Source: an uncultured Bacilli bacterium (GTDB lineage Bacteria > Bacillota_I > Bacilli_A > RF39 > UBA660). From it: a stretch of DNA of 44,186 nucleotides. The notes beneath the pieces are model-generated. The model did not search any database. It was not told where the DNA came from and worked only from the letters and a program-made list of their open reading frames with translations. Positions 23,155 through 30,192 of this stretch are shown here, piece by piece (positions within the stretch are counted from its first letter, which is position 1; each line of letters begins with the position of its first letter). The stretch spans positions 1 through 44,186 of the forward strand of contig CALVHI010000004.1 of assembly GCA_944327365.1 (NCBI GenBank), in the 5' to 3' direction. The position numbers and the translations under genes are program-made.

Positions 23155-25059
23155 CTACCCTAGAAGAAGCATGATTGACTCACCTTCTTTTACATAATAT
23201 CCAGCCTTAGGAGACATGTATAAAACTGTATCACCTACTCCTGAATACTCTATTTTAAAATTTTTAAGAGCTTTAGTCGCTTCTTTTTTACTCATTCCTA
23301 CAACATTAGGCAAAATACTATACTTTTTATCTAGCCAAGTATATTCTTTAGGCATTCCATCATCACTTGGTTTAATATTTAAAATATCTATTGCTGATAA
23401 TAACACATTTCTTGCTATAGGAGCGGAAACCACCCCACCATACTGAGTAACTCCTTTAGGATTATCAATAGCAACATAAACTATTATTTCCGGATCATTA
23501 GCAGGCATAAAACCCATAAAAGATAAAATATAATTGCCATCTAAATATTTCCCATTTTCTACTTTCTGTGCTGTACCAGTTTTCCCTCCCACTCGATAAT
23601 TTTCAATATAAGCATTTTTACCACTACCATTCGCAACAACACTTTCTAAAGCATATCTAACTAAACTACTTGTTTCTTCACTTATTACTTGGGCAGTTGA
23701 TTGAGAATGAACTTTCTTAATTAAGCTGTTTGTTTCACTTTCTAAATAACTATCTACTATATATGGAGTATAAAGATACCCGCCATTTATTGCTGCTGAA
23801 ACGGCTCTAATCTGTCCTATGGGAGTGACACTAATTCCCTGACCAAAACTCGTTGTTGCTAGTTCTACTGGCCCCATTTTTTCTTTATCAAATAGTATTC
23901 CTGTTGCTTCTCCATTTAAATCTATTCCTGTTTTAGCTCCAAATCCATAAGCTTCAATATAACTCATCAGTTTATCTACACCTAGAGTTTGCCCAATTCG
24001 AACAAAACCGGGATTACAGGAATTTTCTACAACTTCAAGCATCGTTTGTACACCATGTCCTCCAGATTTCCAGCAATGAATAACTGCACCATCAACTTCA
24101 ATTGCCCCTCCATCTGTAAAAGTGTCTTCAAATAAATTAATAGTTTTCTCTTCTAATGCTGCAGATAAAGTTATTATCTTAAAAGTTGAACCAGGCTCAT
24201 AAGTCATCCAAATCGGTAAGTTACGATTAATTACTTCCGTTTTATAATCTTGATAATGATTGCTATTAAAGTTTGGCCTACTTGCCATTGCTAATACTTC
24301 TCCCGTATCAGGATCCATTGCTACAATCAAACCCCGTTCAGGATTATATCGATCTAAAGCATTATCTAACTCATTTTCTATAGCTAACTGTAAATTGATA
24401 TCAATAGTAAGTTTTAAAGTAATTCCGCTAGTTGGAGCCTCATAAATTTCCGTAAGTTCAAGTTTATTCCCTTTTCCATCAGAAAAATATTTAATTGCCC
24501 CATCAGCTCCTGTCAAATACTCATCATAGTAAAGTTCAATTCCTGATAAACCTTGATTATCAATACCTACATAACCTAACACATGAGATAATACATCTTC
24601 ATAGGGATAGTATCTCTTACTTTCTTTTAATAAATACACTCCATCATAACCTAATTCATCTATTTTCTGTGCAATATCAAAAGATAATCCTCTTCCTTCA
24701 GGATGTACTCTTTCTATAGAAGTAGACTTTGTAACATGTTTTAACATATCTTGATAATCAGTTCCTAAAATAGCTGATAAATCTTGAGCTACTGCCTTAG
24801 CATCATCAATTTGACCGGGAACAACGACAAGAGATACCGTTGTAACATTAGTTGCTAATATTTCTCCATTTCGATCAACAATAAGCCCTCGATCTGCTTT
24901 AATCGGAAGTTCTCTACTCCACAAGTTTTCTGCTAAACTAGAAAGCTTATCATAAGCAAAAACTTGAATATAAAACACTTTAATAATAATAGCTATTAAA
25001 ATAATTATACTAATTAAAAAAATAAAACGTATTCTTTCATGAATAGTACTAAAAAACAT
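23155..25059 (-). CDS. Class B penicillin-binding protein with PASTA domain (PBP2B/SpoVD type)
   Basis: Transpeptidase that cross-links peptidoglycan. An N-terminal membrane helix is followed by the PBP dimerisation domain (LPIKADRGLIVDRNGEILATN). The transpeptidase domain has the catalytic motifs STFK (in EPGSTFKI), SCN (in VENSCNPGF) and KTG (in GGKTGTAQK). A single C-terminal PASTA module begins ILPNVVGMSKKEATKAL. The ATG at 25059 is favoured (GGTG upstream); a TTG at 25089 would start inside the preceding terminator. It precedes mraY and ftsW, so it is the probable FtsW partner. It is either the division PBP or a SpoVD-like paralogue; sequence alone does not separate them. Confidence 0.95.
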   Translation of the reverse strand: MFFSTIHERIRFIFLISIIILIAIIIKVFYIQVFAYDKLSSLAENLWSRELPIKADRGLIVDRNGEILATNVTTVSLVVVPGQIDDAKAVAQDLSAILGTDYQDMLKHVTKSTSIERVHPEGRGLSFDIAQKIDELGYDGVYLLKESKRYYPYEDVLSHVLGYVGIDNQGLSGIELYYDEYLTGADGAIKYFSDGKGNKLELTEIYEAPTSGITLKLTIDINLQLAIENELDNALDRYNPERGLIVAMDPDTGEVLAMASRPNFNSNHYQDYKTEVINRNLPIWMTYEPGSTFKIITLSAALEEKTINLFEDTFTDGGAIEVDGAVIHCWKSGGHGVQTMLEVVENSCNPGFVRIGQTLGVDKLMSYIEAYGFGAKTGIDLNGEATGILFDKEKMGPVELATTSFGQGISVTPIGQIRAVSAAINGGYLYTPYIVDSYLESETNSLIKKVHSQSTAQVISEETSSLVRYALESVVANGSGKNAYIENYRVGGKTGTAQKVENGKYLDGNYILSFMGFMPANDPEIIVYVAIDNPKGVTQYGGVVSAPIARNVLLSAIDILNIKPSDDGMPKEYTWLDKKYSILPNVVGMSKKEATKALKNFKIEYSGVGDTVLYMSPKAGYYVKEGESIMLLLG

Positions 25060-25086
25060 ATTCTTCACCAATAAACTATATGAAAG

Positions 25087-25117
25087 CAAAAAAAAAATTA
25101 GAAGTTACTCTAATTTT
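25087..25117 (-). terminator. Terminator of the PH-domain gene
   Basis: Nine-base stem AAAATTAGA/TCTAATTTT with a six-base loop, followed by ten T on the minus strand. The PBP start is only about 28 bases beyond. Confidence 0.85.
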
Positions 25118-25120
25118 AAA

Positions 25121-25516
25121 TTATCCAATTTTAGCTTTCATCATCGCTTTATAAACTTTTTTAATTACTTCTTTTTTATCGTGATTCATATCAATAAAAT
25201 TGACATGTAACTGATACCCACTATCAAAACTGAATAATAACTCAACTTTACCTGGCTTAAAATTAATTGCACTAGTAGAAATAGATACATAGGGAATAAC
25301 ATGTATTTTTTTATAATATACTGCTAAAGTATCACGGTCAAATAATATCATTTTCTTATCTGTAAAAACAACATAATCACGACTATTTTTATATCCAATT
25401 AAAATAGTTTCATTATCCTCTACATATTCTTTTGCATAATCTGGTAACTTATCTTCATAAACTTCCGTTTTAAAATCAAAATACTTAGATAATTCTTTAA
25501 ATTTAATATAAGACAT
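25121..25516 (-). CDS. Bacterial PH-domain-like protein
   Basis: Soluble protein of 131 residues without signal or membrane segment. It probably belongs to the bacterial pleckstrin-homology-like family (bPH/DUF1696): a strand-rich core with YVVFTDKKMILFD, then IHVIPYVSISTSAINFKPG, a strand LLFSFDSGYQLHVNF and a C-terminal amphipathic helix. These are the usual landmarks of that fold. The role of such proteins is largely unknown; some respond to envelope stress. It is a single-gene unit with its own embedded promoter and a strong terminator. AAGGAT lies 8 bases before the start. Confidence 0.75.
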   Translation of the reverse strand: MSYIKFKELSKYFDFKTEVYEDKLPDYAKEYVEDNETILIGYKNSRDYVVFTDKKMILFDRDTLAVYYKKIHVIPYVSISTSAINFKPGKVELLFSFDSGYQLHVNFIDMNHDKKEVIKKVYKAMMKAKIG

Positions 25517-25567: not shown

Positions 25568-25576
25568 TTCCTTTTT
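25546..25576 (-). terminator. Terminator of the surface protein gene
   Basis: Stem AAGGAAT/ATTCCTT with an eight-base loop and eight T on the minus strand. It overlaps the stop codon at 25575-25577. Confidence 0.85.
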
Positions 25577-28500
25577 ATGCATTTGGATTTAAAACTGGAA
25601 CATAATATCTATAATTCCAATTTGTATCTCGAATTGCTGCATAATAATTTGCTGTAGATTCATAATAATTCATTTGGATTTTATTATTATTATACACACT
25701 ATTTAATGTTTCTTGAACATATTTTTCGCTATCTGATGTTACTAAAATACCAATCCAAGAACTACCCTCAACATTGTTTAAAGTAAGATTATTATCTTTA
25801 ATGTTATCTAAAGAGCCATCATAATTTAATAAATGAATAGCTCCCATTATAGTAGCATTTTTAATAGTTATTTCATTACTACAAGTACTAGTCGCAGTAC
25901 AATCCAATCTAATAGTTCCTTGGCCTTGTAAATTGCTAGTTGTATTATAAACACCACCATTAATAACAACATTATCAGCTTCTGGACTAATATTTAAAAC
26001 AGTACTTTCACTTATAACATTTACATTATTTAAAGTTACATTATCACCAGTAATTGTTATAATTCCTTCAATATTTACATTATTTAATGTAATATTGTTG
26101 GCGGTAATATTTAATGAACCTGTTATTTTATTAGAGCTATTACCATAAATTGTAACTCCATCAGCAATATTAGCAAAATCGGTAGCACTCATTGTAACAT
26201 CATTAACTAAAGTAATATGATTATTAGGAACACTTAAGGCATTTTTTATTCCTTCGGCATCAAATTTTACAACACTAATATTTTCAAAGACTGTTTCATT
26301 TCCTGATTCATCAACAATACGAATATTAGCATTTTTTAGTTCATCTTGATATGGCATACCACCAGCAAACTCACCAGCTGTATAATCATTATCAATCTTT
26401 CTCCATTCTTCATCATTTATATAAATCCTATATTTTTTTGAATTATCAGTAATTTTAAATGTGAATCCTCCGCCTAATTTATTTACACCATCTTCAGCAT
26501 ATCTAACAAAATAAGTCATATTACTTTCAAGTCCTGTCACTTCTGGTGCAGTAGTATCTGTTATTACTACTAACATTACTGCTTCAACTGAATTTCCAGA
26601 AGAATCGGTTGTCTTATAATAAAGATTATATCTTCCAGTTAAGTTAGTATCAAAACCATTTGTTTTAAAGTCATAATTATAAACATTGGCTTCTCCATTA
26701 CTTGGAAATAATGTTGCAGAATAAGGCTCAATTGTTCTTTCTTTATCATAATTATCTGCAACTGTTGCCAAAACATCTTCAAGTGTTAATTTACTACCAG
26801 TTTCAATACGTAATTCATTTTGATTAAGTCCTTCAGTACCAGCAAGAATAATTGTAGGACTTGTTGTATCTTTTAAAGTAATAACTTTTTCTACATAAGC
26901 TTTATTTCCTGCTTCATCACGAATATCATAAGTAACAAGATAGTCACCAAGAGGACAAGCTTTTAATGATGTATTCCAATTATCATAGCCAAAACATTTA
27001 GTACTTTCACCTTTTGTACCATCAGCATTTTTTTGATACCAATTCATATTTACATTACTAAAAGATAAAGCCCCATCCATATTATCAGTTACTTTTCCAG
27101 GTTGAGGATATTCATATACATCAACGCCAACTTTAAATTCTGCTGGAATTTCAGATAAATCAAATTTTGGTGCAGTAGTATCAATTGTAAATTCATAAGT
27201 TGAAGAGTTATTAGCTCTATCCGTAACAACTAATTGATATTTACCTTCTTTATCATATGTTACAACACAATCTTGAGTATTATCCCAATTGAATTTACAA
27301 ATAACTTCTTCTTCTTTCGTTAATTGATTAACAATTTTAACTTCTTTTAAATCATTATCTGTAACTACTAAATTGACTTCTTGATATTTATTTCCAGGTA
27401 TGAATTCAACATCTTTAGATGCAACCTTACCTGTTCCAGTAACACTTGGAGCAGTACGGTCATGATAAATCCAGATTTCATCCATATTACCAGCTAAATC
27501 ATAGGCTGTCAATTTATACATACAATTGCCATCAGTTAATTCCCAAGTTAAGGCTTCTTCACCTTCATAAGTTGTTGTTTTTCCAGTTCCATAACTATAT
27601 ACTTCTAAACGAGCAATATTTTCTTCTGTTATTTTTACAGTAAACTTACTAAACGTATCACCATTTGTAAAATTAAACTCTGGAAGCGTATTATCAACTA
27701 TTACTTTATTATATTTACTTAAAGTAATATCTGCTTCTGTTTTAGTATCTCCTACATTACCAAGTTTATCTTCATAACCTGATACTGTAAATTTAATAAT
27801 ACCATCAGTTAAATCTAAAGTAGAAATATCTGGAATATCAACGAAATAAGAATAACTATTTTTACCATCATCCGTTGCTTTAAAAGCAGTATATTCATAT
27901 CCATTAATTGTAATTGTTGGATTTACTGCTAGTAATTCATTAAAGTAAGCCAGAATTCTGATACCTTTACCATTTTTTACATAATGAGCATCAAATTCTG
28001 CTTCACTAGTATAACCGGTAATACCTAAATTTATTAATTCAGGTGCTTCTCCATCATATTTAACTTGTCCATAGCCATTTTCTTCATGGTATGTAACATT
28101 GTCATTATCAAGAGTTGTAGTATTACCGAAAATATCTGTAACCTCAATAGTAAATTTAATATTTTCAGCATGAACTAATTTCATTTCTTCTGCATCAATT
28201 GTAATGGTTTTTGAATAAATATAACGAGAATCATTAGCTCTACGAGTTAATTCCCCTGTCCAATCCCCAATAGTAATTACTGGATTTTCAGCTAATTCTT
28301 CATTAACATTTATCTCAACAATTAATTTTTGATTATTACCAATAATTGTACGATTATCTTCATCTGCACTTAAAATGTATACCCACTTAGATTCTGGCGC
28401 ATCATTATCAATAGTAAATTCATCAGTATTAATATGGCCAAATTTATCTTTTGCGCTTACAGTATAAGTTCCAGAATTCTTACTATCGTATTCATAAGTT

Positions 28501-29381
28501 AAAGTAAGTGTTCTATTTTCATTGTTACCTTCACTAGTAAAGTCTTTTTCAGTAAACACCTTATCATTAACTGTTACTTCTGTTAAGAATTTGTCAGATA
28601 CAGTTAAAGTTACTTCTCCACCAAATTTATTTTCGAATTCATTAGTACCAGTAACTTCAATTTTAGGATCTGTTTCATCAATTGCTACCCATATAGTTGT
28701 TTCATTTCCAAGTTTATCATAAGCCGTAATTTTATATGTTGCCTCATCACTTAAAGTAAATTCGTTTGTTCCTTCTTTTGTCTCAGTAGTATCTGTATCT
28801 TGATTATAAATAGTAATATAAGCTAAAGAAGCATCTTCAACTTTAATATTTATGTCTTTATCACTATGAGTACCTGATGCAACATTAAATTTTGGAGCAG
28901 TCTTATCAAGACTAAATTCTACTACAGTCTCATTACCAGCGTCATCTTTAACAGATAAACGATAAGTACCATCGCTACTTAGCGTCATACCATTACTAAA
29001 TTCTAATGCTTCATCATTTAAAGTAATAGAAACATTTAAGTTTTCTTCAACTAATGATAAAACAACATCCGTATTTACATAACCAATTTTGTTATCTGGC
29101 CCTTGATAAGTTTTATCAAGAATAGTTACAATCGGTGCAGATTTATCCGTTTCATCTTCACTTGGTTTATCGTCTTCCTCGGGAGCATTTGGCTTATCCT
29201 CTTCACTTGGTGTACTTGGCTTATTTTCTTCATCATCACCAATTACTACTTCCGTTTTATCTTCATCCTTTGGATTATCAGTTATAGAGTCACTTCCCTC
29301 ATTACGGTTCCCACTTGTTTTGTTATCGTCAGAATCGTTGGGCGTGTCTTCTTCTTCACCTTCTTCCACCACTACCATCAT
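25575..29381 (-). CDS. Ig-repeat and beta-helix surface protein, main body (N-terminus in another frame)
   Basis: Large extracellular protein body of about 1268 residues. It begins with an acidic, Pro/Ser-rich linker (to about residue 85). About ten Ig-like modules follow, with recurring DxTAPxF-type starts and D-x-x-GN-x-T endings such as KDDAGNETVVEF, YDKLGNETTIW and TDRANNSSTYEF. The last 200 or so residues form a right-handed beta-helix-like domain rich in NNITLNNV/ITIKNATI steps. No LPxTG or other sorting signal is seen. The ATG at 29381 has no ribosome binding site and no signal peptide. The real start is in the overlapping frame at 29547 (next entry), so one indel or a frameshift separates the two. 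Adhesion or substrate binding is inferred from the domains. Confidence 0.85.
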   Translation of the reverse strand: MMVVVEEGEEEDTPNDSDDNKTSGNRNEGSDSITDNPKDEDKTEVVIGDDEENKPSTPSEEDKPNAPEEDDKPSEDETDKSAPIVTILDKTYQGPDNKIGYVNTDVVLSLVEENLNVSITLNDEALEFSNGMTLSSDGTYRLSVKDDAGNETVVEFSLDKTAPKFNVASGTHSDKDINIKVEDASLAYITIYNQDTDTTETKEGTNEFTLSDEATYKITAYDKLGNETTIWVAIDETDPKIEVTGTNEFENKFGGEVTLTVSDKFLTEVTVNDKVFTEKDFTSEGNNENRTLTLTYEYDSKNSGTYTVSAKDKFGHINTDEFTIDNDAPESKWVYILSADEDNRTIIGNNQKLIVEINVNEELAENPVITIGDWTGELTRRANDSRYIYSKTITIDAEEMKLVHAENIKFTIEVTDIFGNTTTLDNDNVTYHEENGYGQVKYDGEAPELINLGITGYTSEAEFDAHYVKNGKGIRILAYFNELLAVNPTITINGYEYTAFKATDDGKNSYSYFVDIPDISTLDLTDGIIKFTVSGYEDKLGNVGDTKTEADITLSKYNKVIVDNTLPEFNFTNGDTFSKFTVKITEENIARLEVYSYGTGKTTTYEGEEALTWELTDGNCMYKLTAYDLAGNMDEIWIYHDRTAPSVTGTGKVASKDVEFIPGNKYQEVNLVVTDNDLKEVKIVNQLTKEEEVICKFNWDNTQDCVVTYDKEGKYQLVVTDRANNSSTYEFTIDTTAPKFDLSEIPAEFKVGVDVYEYPQPGKVTDNMDGALSFSNVNMNWYQKNADGTKGESTKCFGYDNWNTSLKACPLGDYLVTYDIRDEAGNKAYVEKVITLKDTTSPTIILAGTEGLNQNELRIETGSKLTLEDVLATVADNYDKERTIEPYSATLFPSNGEANVYNYDFKTNGFDTNLTGRYNLYYKTTDSSGNSVEAVMLVVITDTTAPEVTGLESNMTYFVRYAEDGVNKLGGGFTFKITDNSKKYRIYINDEEWRKIDNDYTAGEFAGGMPYQDELKNANIRIVDESGNETVFENISVVKFDAEGIKNALSVPNNHITLVNDVTMSATDFANIADGVTIYGNSSNKITGSLNITANNITLNNVNIEGIITITGDNVTLNNVNVISESTVLNISPEADNVVINGGVYNTTSNLQGQGTIRLDCTATSTCSNEITIKNATIMGAIHLLNYDGSLDNIKDNNLTLNNVEGSSWIGILVTSDSEKYVQETLNSVYNNNKIQMNYYESTANYYAAIRDTNWNYRYYVPVLNPNA

Positions 29382-29547
29382 TCGTATTCTCGTTGTCTAG
29401 ATTCTCATCATCATTGACATCGCTTGAATTATTAACATCATTATTATTCTCATCTAGACGTTCACTTGGATTAGCGAATACGAAAGTACCTAATCCGATT
29501 AAAAGAATAATAACAACGGCTAATATTATGCCTTTTTTCTTATCCAT
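29356..29547 (-). CDS. Signal/anchor segment of the surface protein, frame-broken
   Basis: A 63-residue frame starts at ATG 29547 with AGGAGG 7-8 bases before it and a strong promoter further up. It reads MDKKKGIILAVVIILLIGLG, a signal or anchor helix, then an Asn/Asp-rich linker with NNDVNNSSDVNDDEN. It ends at a TGA (29356-29358) inside the acidic linker of the large protein. Joining the frames needs a +1 shift (one extra base, or two missing) somewhere between 29356 and 29396, where both frames are open. Natural inactivation, phase variation and an assembly error are all possible. The purine-rich GGT/GAA runs there are short and no homopolymer is present. Confidence 0.8.
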   Translation of the reverse strand: MDKKKGIILAVVIILLIGLGTFVFANPSERLDENNNDVNNSSDVNDDENLDNENTNDGSGGRR

Positions 29548-29573: not shown

Positions 29574-29601
29574 ATTATAGCATTTTTTTAATTAAAATCA
29601 A
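29574..29601 (-). promoter_or_regulatory. Promoter of the surface protein gene
   Basis: TTGATT (29596-29601), 16 bases, and TATAAT (29574-29579) preceded by TGC, an extended -10. AGGAGG (about 29554-29559) and the ATG at 29547 follow. Confidence 0.75.
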
Positions 29602-29650: not shown

Positions 29651-29688
29651 TGCAAAAAAATAAACTAGAACGCTGCTAGTTTATTTAA
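29651..29688 (-). terminator. Terminator of the ezrA-SEC-C-lepB operon
   Basis: An 11-base-pair stem AAATAAACTAG/CTAGTTTATTT (29658-29668 with 29676-29686) is followed by a T run. It contains the stop codon of the second signal peptidase. Confidence 0.9.
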
Positions 29689-30192
29689 AGGCCATATTCG
29701 AAAGGAAACTTTCCCTATCACTACATCTTTACTTATTAAGCCTATTTCTCTACTATCTAAAGAATCTTCTCTATTATCGCCAAGCACTAAATACATATCA
29801 TCAGGAATTGTATCATAACCTAAACTACTTAGTTCAAAATCATCATAAACAAGACCTTCATCCAAATAATTTTCTATATATAATTCACCATTAATATATA
29901 AGGTATTATCACGAATAGAAACAATATCCCCAGGAAGACCAATGACTCTTTTGATTAAATATTTTGTATCAGCATATTCTAAAGATATAATATCTCCCCT
30001 CTTAATATCTGTAAAACGATATTTAAACTTATTTAAAATAAGCACATCCCCATTTTCTAAAGTACTATTCATCGAATTACCTACTACCTGTGTAACCGAA
30101 ACTACATAAATCATTAAAAACAAAATAATTATTATCACAATGATTAATTTAACAAAATCTATTATAAATTCTCTAATACTAAGCCAGTCCAT
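29665..30192 (-). CDS. lepB: Signal peptidase I (second copy)
   Basis: Type I signal peptidase of 175 residues. One membrane segment (about residues 12-33) is followed by the serine motif NSMNST, the lysine motif KRVIGLPGD and GDNREDSLDSR. All catalytic residues are present. It differs clearly from the copy at 8128-8610, with a longer loop before the GDNR box. It is the last gene of the ezrA operon and sits right before the large surface protein, which it may help process; that link is inference from position. AGAGGTGG precedes the ATG. Confidence 0.94.
   Translation of the reverse strand: MDWLSIREFIIDFVKLIIVIIIILFLMIYVVSVTQVVGNSMNSTLENGDVLILNKFKYRFTDIKRGDIISLEYADTKYLIKRVIGLPGDIVSIRDNTLYINGELYIENYLDEGLVYDDFELSSLGYDTIPDDMYLVLGDNREDSLDSREIGLISKDVVIGKVSFRIWPLNKLAAF

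Follow-up and report, generated by a model that had tools for sequence, protein, structure and literature searches.

A recent frame break in the gene for a predicted Ig-like surface protein from an uncultured member of the Bacilli, at a locus with cassette exchange and several broken alleles

The window analysed here, a stretch of 44,186 nt, is one (C4) of the 56 contigs of G000, a draft MAG of an uncultured Bacilli bacterium (1.03 Mb, 86.5% complete), and the frame break described below is known from this one draft assembly of the source species. On the minus strand of the window lies a gene, split over two frames, whose product is predicted to be an Ig-like surface protein that is either secreted or tethered to the membrane (Table 1). 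The order of signal peptidase I, surface protein and bPH_1 protein, often followed by a penicillin-binding protein with PASTA domains, is found in the window as well as in many genera of the family. Matches of the body protein to the Pfam families BiPBP_C, Big_3_4 and Bact_surface_Ig-like were weak and all under the cut-off, and a sequence comparison of the surface protein with solved structures gave no match; the C-terminal repeat resembles a beta-helix in its sequence pattern only.

Table 1. Features of the surface-protein locus in the window
Feature	Position	Strand	Remarks
Penicillin-binding protein with PASTA, next neighbour	23158..25089	-	Pfam; same position in several genomes of the genus
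bPH_1 protein, downstream neighbour	25124..25516	-	Pfam PF08000, E 7.7e-13; synteny conserved
Body frame: linker remainder, Ig-like repeats, C-terminal beta-helix-like repeat	25575..29396	-	1273 codons
Central cassette, recently common to the window and G010	27194..28541	-	13 differences in ~1.35 kb
Dual-open region: one-base length difference from intact orthologue, short G-rich/purine stretch	29356..29396	-	
5′ fragment: ATG, signal peptide (MDKKKGIILAVVIILLIGLGTFVFA, then N), acidic N/D/E-rich linker, TGA at 29358-29356	29356..29547	-	Orthologous starts in eight genomes of the genus
Promoter-like TTGATT-16-TATAAT, 5′ of the signal-peptide frame	29574..29601	-	Consensus match only; position conserved among closer alleles of the genus
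Signal peptidase I (Peptidase_S26), upstream neighbour	29668..30192	-	Pfam PF10502, E 1.3e-44; synteny conserved

Read from stop to stop, the signal-peptide frame spans positions 29574-29356 (72 codons, MDKKKGIILAVVIILLIGLGTFVFANPSE...NTNDGSGGRR, then TGA), with its ATG at 29547 preceded by AGGAGG. The body frame (29396-25575) is one register off and stop-free, and the two frames are open together in 29356-29396 only, exactly as given in a preliminary description made from the sequence. The promoter, AGGAGG and ATG which it had assigned to the first frame, and the TGA ending that frame within an acidic linker, were likewise all found, as was the lack of a ribosome binding site and signal peptide on the large frame, where the earliest ATG (29381) has no AGGAGG, good Shine-Dalgarno sequence or signal peptide. 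Where it had spoken of a signal anchor, the signal was recovered; its last residues, VFA-N, would make a plausible site for cleavage, and it may be a cleavable signal peptide instead of an anchor. The spacer of the promoter-like element holds an A7 run, the length of which is constant among G000, G010 and G006, giving no sign of switching through the promoter spacer in these three genomes. Downstream of the break, the linker contains a frame-neutral array of period 27 (29159-29232, 2.7 copies), which was the sole listing of Tandem Repeats Finder.

In G010 (CALVQN010000004.1, MAG of an uncultured Bacilli bacterium of the same genus), the orthologue is a single frame of 1249 codons in the same synteny, which opens with the same signal peptide and continues into the same body. 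Single-frame orthologues are also present in G005, G009, G002, G007, G008 and G014, and in G013 the frame is single up to the contig end. Around the break, the DNA of the window and of G010 is near-identical apart from a length difference of one base, and in an alignment of the 5′ region of nine alleles the window alone is out of frame at the break column, with the eight orthologues of the genus in frame. Since intact orthologues span the break and only the window is out of register, the two frames are, judging from these alignments, one ancestral gene that is now split, and because the orthologue of the sister species G010 is one frame leading from the same signal peptide into the same body, the arrangement can hardly be a product of chance. 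These orthologues and the stop-free body bear out the recent break between signal peptide and body of one surface-protein gene that the preliminary description had proposed; the homologues are intact across the break, and its site is not conserved. A search for another strain of the source species, among genome contigs with one genome per species, gave only the contig of G010, and among viral contigs it gave none. Further decay, which is expected only of old pseudogenes, was absent from the window copy, with no other stop in its 1273 codons, so the allele is either very young or not null.

Broken alleles are not confined to the window. Across the family, 33 alleles could be assessed (G314 and G381, which were unclear, are excluded from this count), of which 28 are intact and five broken, the window allele included; calls were based on the anchor position, the open-frame length and the position of bPH, with a minority made by reading the sequence. 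The five broken alleles have lesions of differing kinds at five different sites. In G006, a TAA nonsense codon directly follows the signal peptide (L025, 6888-6890) and the body is open for ~1.3k codons, whereas the frame breaks of the others are located mid-gene (G226), near codon 330 (G378), and near the C-terminus together with an additional TAA (G213). Most, if not all, of the genomes in this comparison are draft MAGs, and these lesions may share the assembly doubt attached to the window. In G011 (L220, ~2290) the surface gene is absent, with the end of the signal peptidase I frame running straight into the bPH_1 region, which represents either a real deletion or a mis-join. Stops inside some of the signal peptidase and bPH matches of other genomes were not counted as breaks, since the open frames there are of full length.

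With the window allele excluded, 4/32 alleles are broken, which amounts to 4 breaks in 104 kb (3.8 per 100 kb), whereas the coding DNA matched between G000 and G010, 434 kb in all, has 2 breaks besides that of the window allele (0.46 per 100 kb). The excess has a Fisher p of 0.0002 per gene and of 0.015 after correction for length, based on few events and on controls that are conserved genes (≥50% identity) expected to break less than surface genes, and part of the excess may therefore be plain dispensability. Among the 465 matched genes of the source genome (434 kb), 3 have a frame break, namely the surface gene and the genes for a P-type ATPase and a sensor kinase, and all three look dispensable. 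The sensor histidine kinase gene (L112, 18018-19421, contig C20) has several small indels, one of them in an AT repeat, and lies near a contig end, while the break in the P-type ATPase gene (L173, ~12075, contig C25) is close to a T6 run.

The preliminary description had noted GGT and GAA repeats at the junction, and had suggested that their slippage would switch the protein on and off. The repeats are indeed present, as period-3 and degenerate period-9 (Gly-Glu-Glu) repeats in the dual-open region, but their slippage does not shift the frame, as gain or loss of a unit of period 3 leaves the frame unchanged, and the period-9 repeat is likewise frame-neutral. Within the 90 nt of the junction, the longest homopolymer is 3 nt and the longest period-3 tract (GAAGAAGAAGA) is 11 nt, no tract with units of two, four or five nucleotides stands out, and tract length at the break column does not vary among the eight orthologues. 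The predicted RNA fold around the break is no better than that of shuffled sequences (z 0.20), a conserved frameshift site was not found across the homologues, and no relative needs a shift there. As tract, RNA structure and a relative in need of a shift are all lacking, there is no positive evidence for either slippage-based phase variation or programmed frameshifting.

Reversible slippage in the linker would be in keeping with a surface protein that is broken near its 5′ end behind the signal peptide and has an open body, with the G006 allele likewise broken within the first 30 codons, and with a precedent that works in a similar way in the vaa gene of Mycoplasma hominis (PMC524362). We nevertheless consider phase variation of this kind improbable, given the missing non-triplet tract, the in-frame orthologues of invariant tract length, and the nonsense codon and distant break sites of the other alleles. 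The breaks of G000 and G006, both towards the 5′ end, at first suggested a switch, a reading that was dropped because G213, G226 and G378 break elsewhere.

A programmed break, which the preliminary description had also entertained, would require a +1 ribosomal shift to fuse both frames, and the TGA does lie immediately 3′ of an AGG codon that is itself preceded by a purine-rich sequence. However, the orthologues need no shift, and a new recoding site would have had to arise in a single species; a shift at AGG-TGA was rejected for want of conservation and structure, and recoding is extremely unlikely. It is very unlikely, too, that the body is made separately by re-initiation at ATG 29381 as a second, cytoplasmic protein. 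The first frame is still open where the ATG ATG lies (29381-29376), so that its end and the possible start overlap, a layout that can allow coupling, yet the start is poorly equipped for initiation as described above, the body consists of extracellular Ig-like repeats that would be left without a signal peptide, and the orthologues make a single protein.

The central cassette of the gene is ~99% identical to that of G010, against a genome-wide identity of 77.5%, whereas the surface gene outside the cassette is mostly 45–65% identical and the signal peptidase I genes of the window and G010 differ by a dS of 0.83. Exact runs of at least 150 nt shared by G000 and G010, with fully masked (N) stretches ignored, are located in the cassette, with one further run of 169 nt elsewhere. 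The gene is thus a mosaic, with a block far closer to another lineage than are its flanks and the genome, and since identity is so far above both, the cassette must have moved between the species long after their split. The differences accumulated since the exchange comprise 7 synonymous and 6 non-synonymous changes, an excess of synonymous changes over the neutral expectation (p about 0.01) measured over both branches together rather than on the window branch alone, and this ratio points to a body that was under constraint until recently. An attempt to prove from dN/dS that the window copy had long been functional was dropped, as the cassette was recently exchanged and both branches can be tested only jointly.

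The explanation we favour, with modest confidence, is that the window carries a null allele of recent origin, in a surface-protein gene that is dispensable, shuffles cassettes and repeatedly gives rise to nulls. In the acidic linker, a change in length by one base would throw the body out of register, so that translation from the normal start would end at 29356 after 63 residues, and the absence of a signal-bearing body protein would make the allele null; its youth is suggested by the body, which retains all of its open codons. The locus would be dispensable and fast-evolving, with cassettes exchanged between species and independent nulls recurring in the family. The lesion is presumably present in living cells, and nulls would be favoured or tolerated. 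An early lesion is not necessarily final, as a null allele could presumably be rescued through recombination with an intact one.

The main rival is that the assembly or the consensus sequence of the MAG is in error at the break, in which case the living population would be in frame and the break artefactual. We regard this as the less likely possibility, although a real one: the break concerns a single base in a single genome at an unconserved site, the body is wholly open and was apparently constrained, and a mosaic gene of co-occurring species may invite local mis-joins in metagenome assembly. The authors of the GeneTack survey judged BLAST-validated singleton frameshifts to be likelier sequencing errors than mutations (PMC3711429). 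The window allele resembles the singleton and hypothetical-pseudogene frameshift genes of that survey in having a homologue-validated frame transition at an unconserved site, and differs in that breaks are found in several alleles of a single syntenic gene, at a different site in each, which indicates loss that recurs and is more than a singleton. Against an error, G000 is otherwise clean at its three breaks per 465 genes, which argues against a sloppy assembly and not against one local error; the break site is not a homopolymer, where long-read errors usually fall; and four further assemblies, independent of this one, also have a break in the gene.

A broader version of the null-allele explanation holds that signal peptidase I, Ig surface protein and bPH form a family-wide contingency locus without repeat tracts, where nulls arise anywhere and are reversed by interspecies cassette exchange. 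We consider this unlikely; if true, expression would be varied by recombination rather than slippage.

Several known systems share parts of this design. CwpV of Clostridioides difficile is switched by invertible DNA, whereas the surface gene has a reading-frame break. CwpV is otherwise similar, being a large surface protein with repeats, from a Firmicute of the gut, of which the expression can be off (PMC4737114). The hypervariable Ig-domain module of Thermococcales is alike by description, in that its genes are hypervariable and one of them encodes a large protein with Ig domains, and is unlike in being archaeal and in having other neighbours (PMC8416519). The closest known system in overall design is the vaa adhesin locus of M. 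hominis, which also has a conserved 5′ end, exchangeable body cassettes and a recombination hot spot, and in which a frameshift near the 5′ end leaves the body frame open (PMC524362). The vaa gene switches at 1e-3 to 1e-4 through a poly-A tract, which has 8 A when ON (PMC524362), while the lesions of the surface gene are scattered among alleles; as the defining poly-A switch is absent at the surface gene, we do not claim membership of the vaa class.

The frame break by itself is ordinary, and the surrounding locus is more useful. Its surface protein is syntenic and evolves fast within an uncultured family of Bacilli, cassettes have recently been exchanged between species, and several alleles have been broken independently. 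The turnover of null alleles in a surface protein, which phage or host pressure may drive, can therefore be put to the test at this locus.
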